Source: a virus
Virus record (IMG/VR): IMGVR_UViG_3300026483_000035
Span: 1 to 24,951 of that record
Strand: one strand, 5' to 3'
Length of the DNA stretch: 24,951 bases
In this document: positions 12,100 to 14,260 of the stretch, piece by piece
How the letters are laid out: each line of letters starts with the position of its first letter
Position numbering within the stretch: the stretch's first letter is position 1
The notes under the pieces: model-generated
The model's input: the letters and a program-made list of their open reading frames with translations, nothing else
Databases searched by the model: none
What the model was told of the DNA's origin: nothing
Program-made: the position numbers and the translations under genes

Positions 12100-12827
12100 G
12101 TGAAAGTTTAACGGCAGAAGCAACGGAAAGTAACGAAGACTTGCAAGGTGTAGATCAATCTACTACTGAGGCAGTAAGCGATGATAACAATGGTCCAGCT
12201 ATTGAGCGGCCTGAGTGGCTTTTAGACAAGTATGCAACAGGCGAAAGGTCGCAGGATGAGGCAATCATAGAGCAGGCCAAGGCATATAAAGAAGCTGAAA
12301 AAAGATTGGGTGCTTTTGTAGGCGCGCCTGATGAATACGACTTAGCGTTGCCAGAGGGTATTGAAGGCGAGGTTGATACTGAGTTGGTTGCATACCAAGA
12401 GTTCATGGAGGTGGCCAAAGAAAGTAACATGAACAACGATACCGCTCAAAGGTTGTTTGAAATCTTTGTTGGTTATCAGCAAAGCATGGTGGGGCAATTA
12501 GAGACTGATTATACCGAGCAAAGAAAACTGCTTGGTGAAAATGCTGATGATCGCATAAGAGGATTGGTTTCGTGGGCAGGCAACAACCTTAGTGAAGAGC
12601 AAGTTGAAGTCATGCACACAATGACAATGACGGCTGATCAAGTTGAAGTTTTAGAGGCTATGATTTCTAAAACAAGAAACAGTAAGTTGCCGGGAAGTCA
12701 GCAAGCCCCTACACTGCAAGAGAGCTATACTTGGGATGACTATCATAAAGCTGTAGGAGATCCAAAATATAAAACAGATAAAGTGTTCAGAGAGAGACAC
12801 AAAAGGCTTGCATCACAACTAGGTTAG
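12096..12827 (+). CDS. Capsid assembly scaffolding protein
   Basis: A 243-aa acidic, helical protein between portal and major capsid genes, the usual place of scaffolding genes in podoviruses. The N-terminus is low complexity and acidic; the middle holds GAPDEYDLALPEGIEGEVDTEL followed by FMEVAKESNMNNDTAQRLFEIFVGYQ, a motif set typical of phage scaffolds. The C-terminus has YTWDDYHKAVGDPKYKTDKVFRERHKRLASQLG; the basic, helical end is where scaffolds contact the capsid shell. It directs procapsid assembly and is then lost. An intrinsic terminator follows 20 bases after the stop. Confidence 0.85.
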   Translation: MSESLTAEATESNEDLQGVDQSTTEAVSDDNNGPAIERPEWLLDKYATGERSQDEAIIEQAKAYKEAEKRLGAFVGAPDEYDLALPEGIEGEVDTELVAYQEFMEVAKESNMNNDTAQRLFEIFVGYQQSMVGQLETDYTEQRKLLGENADDRIRGLVSWAGNNLSEEQVEVMHTMTMTADQVEVLEAMISKTRNSKLPGSQQAPTLQESYTWDDYHKAVGDPKYKTDKVFRERHKRLASQLG

Positions 12828-12847
12828 AGTTATTATTTAACCTTCAT

Positions 12848-12888
12848 GCCCTTTCGCGTATCTGCCTCACGTGTTAGGGCTTTTTTTT
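12848..12888 (+). terminator. Intrinsic terminator after the scaffold gene
   Basis: GCCCT (12848-12852) pairs with AGGGC (12876-12880). Inside it, after a TT/TT internal loop, CGCGT (12855-12859) pairs with ACGTG (12869-12873) with one G-U pair, leaving a nine-base loop. Eight T residues follow directly (12881-12888). Stem plus T-tract is the form of a Rho-independent terminator. It separates the packaging/head operon from the capsid gene. Confidence 0.8.
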
Positions 12889-12909
12889 AACTAAAATTTA
12901 GCTTATAAT
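12881..12909 (+). promoter_or_regulatory. Candidate promoter for the capsid unit
   Basis: TATAAT at 12904-12909 is a perfect sigma-70 -10 hexamer. Seventeen bases upstream the -35 position falls in the T-tract of the terminator (TTTTTT at 12881-12886), a weak -35 match. A promoter is needed here because the terminator precedes the most highly expressed gene. Transcription would begin near 12915. A phage-specific promoter cannot be excluded. Confidence 0.5.
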
Positions 12910-12914
12910 AATTT

Positions 12915-13077
12915 CACGCCATGAAATAATGTATTGGCGCCCCATCTAACGATACCCTGCTTCAAGTAGGCCGTGATACGAAGGGATTAGCGAGTGCTGG
13001 TCTACCCGTAAACGGTCACTAGGTCAGAGACGAGCAAAACGTTTTTGATTTTTTTTAATTACTTGGAGACAAAGATC
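12915..13077 (+). ncRNA. Structured leader of the major capsid mRNA (candidate)
   Basis: About 160 bases without an open frame lie between the -10 box and the capsid ATG, which is unusual in a genome where most gaps are under 50. Several hairpins can be drawn: CGCCA (12917-12921) with TGGCG (12935-12939); CCTGC with GTAGG around a TTCAA loop (12956-12970); GGG-ATTAGC with GCTGGT-CTA-CCC around a GAGT tetraloop (12983-13007); and CCG-TAAA-CGG (13005-13014). GGTCA is repeated at 13014-13018 and 13022-13026. The 3' end has T-runs and then the ribosome-binding GGAG at 13065-13068. It could stabilise the mRNA, control translation or act as a regulatory RNA. No known riboswitch or ribozyme was recognised. 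Confidence 0.45.
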
Positions 13078-13926
13078 ATGAGTAAAACTCTATCTTCTGT
13101 TGCTCAACAAGAGTTCGATTCTTTAGTTAAACACGCATACCAATCTGGTGGTAAATTGCGTGATTGCCTAACGTTACGAACTGATGTTGTTGGCGACATT
13201 TACAAATTCCGTCGCATGGGCAAAGGCCTTGCTAACCAAAAAGCAAGCCAAGCTGATGTTACACCTATGGACATTTCACACGCGTTAATTCCAGCTACTT
13301 TGGAAAACTGGTTAGCTCCAGAGTACACTGATATTTTTGACGCTGCTGAAGTAAACTTTGACGAGCAACAAGAGCTTGCAATGGTAATCGCTATGGCAAT
13401 GGGCCGTCGTGAAGACCAGTTAGCTATTGACGCTTTAGGTAGTATTCCTGCTGCCGCTGGTACAGCATTAAGCAACATTGCTGTTGGTGGTGCTGGCTTT
13501 ACTGTTGATAAAGTACGCGAAGCTGGTGCTGCTTTTGATGCTGAAGGTATGGGCATGGACGGTCGTTACATCGCTTTCACTGCAACACAGAAGCAACAAC
13601 TTCTAGGTTCAACTGAAGCTACAAGCTCTGACTACATGAACGTCAAAGCTTTAGTAAACGGCGACATTGACACTTTCTACGGTTTCAGATTCAAGTTAAT
13701 TGAAACTCGTGATGAGGGTGGTTTGCCGGGTGCTGGTTCTTCTGATGCTACTGCTTACGCTTTCCATCGTGATGCGTTAGGTATGGCTATCGGTATTGAC
13801 CAGAAAACAACTGTTGACTGGATCGCTGAGAAAACATCTTGGTTGGCCAACGGTATTCTAAAAGCTGGTGCTGTAGTTCGTGACGCTCGTGGCGTTGTTG
13901 AAATTCACACTGACGAAACTGCATAA
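13078..13926 (+). CDS. Major capsid protein
   Basis: A 282-aa protein starting at the ATG at 13078, with GGAG nine bases upstream; the frame is open further upstream but only into T-rich leader. It begins MSKTLSSVAQQEFDSLVKHAYQSGGKL, then VGDIYKFRRMGKGLANQKASQADVTPMD, a long central part including the DEQQELAMVIAMAMGRREDQLAIDAL helix (the long spine helix of HK97-fold shells), and ATAYAFHRDALGMAIGIDQKTTVDWIAEKTSWL near the C-terminus. This is the compact podovirus capsid type also seen in marine podoviruses. Of 13 arginines, 11 are CGT/CGC, unlike the AGA/AGG bias of neighbouring genes, consistent with strong translation. It forms the icosahedral shell with the scaffold. Confidence 0.88.
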   Translation: MSKTLSSVAQQEFDSLVKHAYQSGGKLRDCLTLRTDVVGDIYKFRRMGKGLANQKASQADVTPMDISHALIPATLENWLAPEYTDIFDAAEVNFDEQQELAMVIAMAMGRREDQLAIDALGSIPAAAGTALSNIAVGGAGFTVDKVREAGAAFDAEGMGMDGRYIAFTATQKQQLLGSTEATSSDYMNVKALVNGDIDTFYGFRFKLIETRDEGGLPGAGSSDATAYAFHRDALGMAIGIDQKTTVDWIAEKTSWLANGILKAGAVVRDARGVVEIHTDETA

Positions 13927-13937
13927 GGAGAATAATC

Positions 13938-14204
13938 ATGGCATTTAGTCGAGATGGTTTATACCAAGTAGGTCCGGGCGGTGGAAGTCCTCGCTTATGG
14001 GTTTACTCAAGCGAAGATCCAATCGCTGACGTTAATACTTCTGGTTACTTTAACGGCGCATCAAGTGAGCTTGGTGTTCGTGACGTAATCGTTGCTATTG
14101 ACACTGCGACACCTACAACTAACCTTGTAAACGTTCTTAGTAACGCTTCAGGTGTTGTTGATGTTTCTGACGGTACTGTTATCGCCGAAACAGATGGTGA
14201 CTAA
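13938..14204 (+). CDS. Small virion protein next to capsid (possible decoration)
   Basis: An 88-aa protein with AAGGAG before the ATG, 11 bases after the capsid stop. It begins MAFSRDGLYQVGPGGGSPRLWVYSSEDPIADVNTSGYFNGA and continues with beta-rich GVRDVIVAIDTATPTTNLVNVLSNASGVVDVSDG. Small proteins of this form (short, beta-rich, LWxYxTxDxIAxVNTxGYF) follow the capsid gene in many podoviruses and are considered virion components, perhaps decoration or fibre-like. It shares the favoured codon style of the capsid gene, so abundant synthesis is likely. The exact role is not known. Confidence 0.6.
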   Translation: MAFSRDGLYQVGPGGGSPRLWVYSSEDPIADVNTSGYFNGASSELGVRDVIVAIDTATPTTNLVNVLSNASGVVDVSDGTVIAETDGD

Positions 14205-14205
14205 T

Positions 14206-14260
14206 TAACAGTTCCCCGCTGTTATAGGGGTGGGGTTTCGGCCCTGCCCCGACTTTATTT
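14206..14260 (+). terminator. Tandem hairpins after the capsid unit
   Basis: Two adjacent hairpins fill the gap. The first pairs TAACAG (14206-14211) with CTGTTA (14219-14224). The second is a ten-pair stem between 14227-14236 and 14241-14250 with three G-U pairs, closed by a TTCG tetraloop. The trailing GACTTTATTT is only moderately T-rich, so termination may be partial. It would reduce readthrough from the capsid genes to the tail genes or protect the capsid mRNA 3' end. Confidence 0.6.

Follow-up and report, generated by a model that had tools for sequence, protein, structure and literature searches.

A capsid-gene leader with two alternative folds as a candidate translational switch in podovirus-like phages

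The riboswitches that control translation are 5' UTR elements with two mutually exclusive folds, in one of which an anti-SD segment pairs with the SD. The leader described here shares that arrangement, but it has no known aptamer, ligand or Rfam match, it carries two tiny identical loops, and its target is a phage capsid gene. The coat protein operator of the RNA phages (the MS2/R17 hairpin) is another precedent for a small hairpin motif controlling the translation of a phage gene, with a structural protein as a possible binder; that operator is one hairpin with a bulged A, whereas our leader is found in dsDNA tailed phages, has a pair of internal loops and precedes the capsid gene itself. In the guanidine-II (mini-ykkC) and glycine riboswitches the same recognition motif also occurs twice in one leader, but the loop sequence and topology of the capsid leader differ from theirs, and it was not found before metabolic genes and had no Rfam match. 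Kinetic control of an mRNA leader is familiar from the maturation leader of MS2 and from hok mRNA, in which translation takes place from a metastable early fold and not from the stable one. The capsid leader would resemble these two, with the difference that its metastable fold carries two conserved loops, which implies recognition. A cis-regulatory RNA of marine phages has been described in the phage-borne glutamine riboswitch (Melnitz, PMC9004378), which is associated with the phage tmRNA gene and not with the capsid, and which is a separate RNA without sequence match to the capsid leader; the phage riboswitches known from the literature concern genes other than capsid (PMC9004378).

By analogy, the capsid leader would work like an SD-sequestering riboswitch or a translational operator, and we do not file it as a riboswitch, a name that presupposes a demonstrated ligand. 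Comparison of many related leaders makes it probable, in our judgment, that the leader acts in cis to switch capsid translation by strand exchange, from its place at the 5' end of the mRNA. We found no earlier report of this leader RNA in the open literature searched, and the leader together with the capsid start had no DNA match among GenBank phages.

The capsid leader and its relatives

The window, a contig of 24,951 bases from a marine phage, encodes podovirus-type structural proteins: a portal/head-tail adaptor, a capsid-assembly/protease-like protein, a major head protein of PHROG 3437, and tail proteins. The leader (12915-13077; this and the following features are on the + strand) lies between a terminator-like stem at 12848-12888 and the ATG at 13078 of the major capsid protein gene (13078-13926, 282 aa; PHROG 3437 major head protein, E = 7e-54). 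That stem, GCCCT..AGGGC with an inner CGCGU/ACGUG and then T8, is a probable intrinsic terminator of the upstream capsid-assembly gene and probably separates the capsid transcript from the genes upstream; a simple scanner missed it because of the scanner's loop length limit, and its inner stem is compensatorily changed in the related contig L010 (CGCAU/AUGCG). The best-scoring terminator-like hairpin of the window, GGGGTGGGGTTTCGGCCCTGCCCC, is at 14227-14250, after a small ORF (13938-14204). The predicted -10 box of the capsid promoter, TATAAT, is present as the consensus at 12904-12909, with no consensus -35 upstream of it.

The original prediction, that the major capsid gene is preceded by a structured RNA leader, has held up well: the leader is conserved at 50-58% capsid identity, it shows covariation, and it folds better than shuffled sequence. 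For 12915-13077 the folding z was -3.57, and for 12946-13077 it was -4.08, with 0 of 200 shuffles as good; 13 related leaders fold with z from -1.7 to -6.7. The leader also matches no Rfam family: the whole window had no match at the gathering threshold, a relaxed search of 12780-13130 gave only chance-level matches at E<=10, and the covariance models of Rfam 15 found nothing above threshold over the leader element in 17 related loci. Upstream of the leader, stretches of two relatives, L209 (1158-1220) and L226 (1249-1334), resemble the Rfam families Betaproteobacteria_toxic_sRNA and anti-hemB with scores below threshold; they are probably terminator-like hairpins. The repeated GGTCA occurs at 13014 and 13022, and each of the hairpins named from the letters exists, i.e., CGCCA/TGGCG (12917-12921/12935-12939), CCUGCU/AGUAGG (12956-12961/12965-12970), a stem with a GAGT tetraloop (12984-12991/12996-13003) and CCG-TAAA-CGG (13006-13015), but they cannot all form together, the GAGT stem and the CCG-TAAA-CGG hairpin being alternative conformations. 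The first of them, a 5'-terminal hairpin (12917-12939), is confined to the window's own clade; in L009, L010, L013, L014 and L206 it has the same position and entirely different paired sequences. What the original prediction did not contain were a paired internal loop, a second conformation, and pairing between the SD and the hairpin that we call H1.

Capsid-protein searches reaching down to ~50% identity gave 59 and then 80 viral contigs (partly overlapping sets), and the leaders upstream of these capsid relatives have a motif in common, though most of the remaining leader sequence differs. With few odd exceptions, the capsid leaders examined (50-100% capsid identity) contain two hairpins, H1 and H2, and each of these has a copy of the same asymmetric internal loop, in which G-AYA(C/A) faces a single C. 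H1 is laid out as outer stem-G-AYAM-C..inner..G-C-outer stem (M = C or A) and is followed by a spacer and then by H2, laid out as outer-C-CC..GG-NYAM-outer; the two strands of H1 recur in H2 in swapped order, and H2 therefore presents the same internal loop in circular permutation. In the window, H1 is ACG-[AUAC]-CCUGCU-UCA-AGUAGG-[C]-CGU at 12949-12974 (strand A1 12949-12961, strand B1 12965-12974), with the first AYAM/C copy, and H2 is CUGGUCUA-[C]-CCG-UAAA-CGG-[UCAC]-UAGGUCAG at 12997-13027, with the second copy and with strand B2 preceding A2; both hairpins match the descriptor and are supported by covariation. Exactly one match to the two-hairpin descriptor was found when both strands of the window were searched, and it was at the leader; the rate in random sequence of matched composition is 0.005 per strand. 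In the relatives, sigma70-type promoters lie directly 5' of H1 (a mean of 8.6 of 12 matches versus 6.7 in shuffled sequence), which places the element at the very start of the capsid mRNA.

When 2.9 million viral contigs were scanned with the H2 sequence, without recourse to proteins, at least 120 loci were recovered, and in 109 of the 120 listed the next reading frame, directly downstream, is a capsid gene by HMM. Among the matches listed, a few further loci have an apparent truncated capsid or are interrupted by the contig end, and some have capsids beyond the reach of the original protein search (L299, L372 and L378). A loose H1 pattern (CCGATACC N4-16 GGCCGG) was swamped by chance matches in viral contigs and was discarded.

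The same two loops, in another arrangement, are found in E. coli prophages and in YeP5, a cultured phage of Yersinia. The YeP5-type E. coli prophages L412 and L413 (NZ_CP091026, and NZ_CM180093 of strain 23GD11002) bear the element, and matches were rare, occurring in 3 of the 5426 complete genomes of E. coli. The Manatee Spring podoviruses L404 and L405 (MW202898, MW202510) have the loop variants ACAA, AUAA and GCAA, and fit the A-type class. No clear copy of the motif was seen in the relatives HTVC010P, HTVC034P, Greip, Skadi and Baldr or in Vibrio phages. At ~9238 of L303, where the reverse strand copy was read, a T7-like capsid gene has upstream of it a sequence resembling a tRNA, and also one perfect hairpin of the motif, UGUCGGCCC-GUUC-GGAUACCCGACA. 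Judged by these comparisons, the structured RNA to which the window's leader belongs is widespread.

Covarying hairpins and a second fold

Covariation was counted on hairpins anchored on the loop, 50 distinct ones for H1 and 26 of the H2 type. In H1, 91.1% of cells are paired versus 69.3% in shuffled data, with a covariation score of 0.638 versus 0.213; the corresponding values for H2 are 96.2% versus 62.8%, and 0.862 versus 0.187 (0 of 500 shuffles in each case). The anchored register leans somewhat towards structure, so that the fair comparison is with the shuffles and with a one-base slide of the partner strand, which cuts the pairing of H1 and H2 to 42-57%. Whole H1-H2 regions aligned by MAFFT had the B1 strand out of place, and anchored half-sites with permutation tests were used instead. 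Homologous capsid leaders, whose collection was suggested at the outset, have hairpins that covary relative to shuffled controls, and the element has what is looked for in a riboswitch class, a conserved covarying structure in a 5' UTR. AT-rich intergenic regions fold readily, and an ordinary 5' UTR with chance hairpins might be supposed, but the covariation, the protein-free recovery of loci before capsid genes and the rarity of the descriptor leave that explanation hardly credible.

The MFE structure is not the pair of hairpins but a nested fold: part of H1 is base-paired to the ribosome-binding site, and this pairing encloses a B1:A2 helix, a hairpin of spacer with B2, and a further stem, P4. 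In the window the MFE structure pairs an anti-SD segment within H1, CUUCAAGUA (12960-12968), with UACUUGGAG (13060-13068), and so sequesters the ribosome-binding region UACUUGGAGA (13060-13069), whose SD is GGAG. The B1 strand GGCCGU (12969-12974) has as its partner ACGGUC (13012-13017) in the A2/H2 loop; the hairpin GGAUUAGC-GAGU-GCUGGUCU takes up 12984-13003, its 3' strand being the 5' strand of H2 in the other fold; and P4 (13021-13051, as 13021-13032 paired with 13040-13051, then a T-run to 13056) is the partner of the outer strand of A2. These segments overlap those of H1 and H2, and the two folds, which we call OFF (nested) and ON (two hairpins), are therefore mutually exclusive.

Support for the OFF helices came from a test in which the duplex energy of two segments from the same leader was set against that of segments from different leaders, with 20,000 permutations. 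H1 with the SD gave -10.2 for own pairs and -7.3 for crossed pairs (z = -8.6, 0 of 20,000), and B1 plus its flank with the H2 loop/A2 gave -15.0 and -10.4 (z = -10.2, 0 of 20,000); the outer A2 strand with the P4 strand reached z = -5.9 (0 of 20,000), and the spacer with B2 z = -3.2 (24 of 20,000). Eight control segment pairs had z from -2.1 to +2.7, most of them near zero. On this comparative evidence all four helices of the OFF fold co-evolve within leaders, with a strong signal in three. In the subgroups L026, L246, L249 and L270 the pairing of H1 with the SD is poor, and a segment after H2 appears to substitute for it.

Averaged across leaders, 0.29 of the 4 SD bases are unpaired in the MFE structure versus 1.45 of 4 with H1 and H2 enforced, and the MFE structure hides the SD in nearly all leaders; in the leader of the window, enforcing H1 and H2 does not free the SD, which another local helix then keeps paired. 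The leader thus has, by comparative support, the other property of a riboswitch class, an alternative fold that would control the SD or a terminator. The OFF fold is predicted to lie 1-24 kcal/mol below the two-hairpin fold (21.7 in the window), and this far greater stability makes a simple equilibrium switch unlikely and calls for a kinetic account.

In the window clade P4 and its T-run (13021-13056) resemble a weak terminator that is mutually exclusive with H2. One could ask, then, whether the transcript ends there (~13051) as a stand-alone small RNA acting in trans, or as a transcription attenuator limiting readthrough, and such a product would fit with the leader's own promoter, the terminator upstream of it and the terminator-like P4 and T-run of the window. 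We regard this as quite improbable: relatives do not generally share the T-run (L014, L018, L045), the pairing to the capsid gene's SD co-evolves, and terminator-like sites, at 21 versus 14.8 +/- 3.5, are barely above chance.

For the strand-exchanging translational switch that we prefer, comparative sequence supplies both sets of helices, the identity of the loops and the context of the capsid gene. H1 and H2 are transcribed first, and co-transcriptional folding into ON is therefore likely. With both hairpins formed, each with the same small internal loop, the ribosome-binding site would be more accessible and the RNA competent for translation, and this fold would be held by whatever recognises the paired loops. 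Failing such recognition, the RNA would rearrange to the more stable, silent OFF fold, in which the 5'/loop strand of H1 would pair with the ribosome-binding site, B1 with A2, B2 with the spacer, and the outer A2 strand with P4; in the window clade, P4 and the T-run could make the silent state terminate transcription as well. We infer that the folds control translation, that they do so in this direction, and that one partner reads both loops. The role first suggested for the leader, to stabilise or time the capsid mRNA, appears in this way to be narrowed to a specific mechanism, in which alternative folds hide or free the ribosome-binding site.

The paired loops and their reader

Position 4 of the loop is identical in both copies in all 48 leaders read (37 C/C, 11 A/A, none mixed; Fisher p 4e-11), with some loop assignments made by eye and the register uncertain, notably for H2 of L017, L018 and L026; position 2 has no association between the copies (p = 0.28). 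On a tree of 63 capsid proteins the state at position 4 changes at least 4 times on supported branches, with 7 changes as the overall minimum, and a further concerted switch separates two E. coli prophages whose capsids are 93% identical, AUAC+AUAC versus AUAA+ACAA. The topology also varies, from A-B + B-A in the window and in L416 (a gammaproteobacterial genome), to B-A + B-A in YeP5 and the E. coli prophages, to a nested B[B-A]A in L282 and L299. That a matched pair of loops is kept across these changing topologies suggests that a single partner reads both loops, or that the loops touch each other. A simple RNA thermometer was set aside, as invariant loop bases and concordance of the two copies are not expected of one, and the resemblances of GAUACC to the theophylline aptamer, the MS2 operator and 16S h24 were rejected, as the opposite strand differs.

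Our leading guess, by a slight preference, is that the partner is a protein, phage- or host-encoded, that binds the pair; it may instead be a small molecule, or the loops may contact one another directly. A particular form of the first idea is autoregulation, in which the phage's own capsid or scaffold protein would adjust capsid translation by binding the two loops. The element is found almost only before capsid genes, very diverged ones included, two identical small loops would suit a dimeric or repeated protein, and loop base 4 changes in concert; yet nearly the same loop accompanies capsids of <= ~30% identity, a poor fit to co-evolving protein-RNA recognition, no capsid residue convincingly tracked the C/A state of position 4, and a protein bound to the two-hairpin fold would be an activator and not a repressor. 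We consider autoregulation unlikely, without being far-fetched.

The concerted single-base change in both copies resembles specificity switching of aptamers, and alternative folds that sequester the SD are typical expression platforms, so that the loops could be tandem aptamers for one metabolite with loop base 4 setting the specificity. This small-molecule riboswitch is doubtful, the loop being only ~5 nucleotides and the target nearly always a capsid gene and not metabolism; moreover, a slightly looser H2 pattern matched 28 times in 369 gammaproteobacterial genomes, and the 20 loci inspected were chance matches, none before a host gene. A ligand-free timer made of RNA only, in which the loops dock by tertiary contact and the metastable ON fold of the young mRNA decays to OFF, would account for the far greater stability of OFF, for loops that are always a matched pair whatever the topology, and for a position 4 that differs between close relatives of the same host species. 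It also seems to us unlikely, the loop-loop contact being conjectural and the strand exchange perhaps too slow or too fast.

Beyond the strand-exchanging switch itself, we put forward tentatively, at somewhat less than even confidence, that these leaders are a previously undescribed class of viral sensor RNA, in which paired identical loops would read one cellular or phage signal and license capsid translation via complete strand exchange, in a very large group of podovirus-like dsDNA phages and with concerted single-base switching of the loops. The motif also serves as a DNA signature by which capsid genes can be located without protein similarity. The capsid protein is typically the most abundant product of a phage, and to our knowledge little is known of how its translation is timed and tuned in dsDNA phages. 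If the proposal is true, it may bring with it a new RNA-ligand or RNA-protein pair, and an RNA switch before hundreds of capsid genes, those of an isolated Yersinia phage and of E. coli prophages included, would be a general and testable answer to the question of capsid timing.
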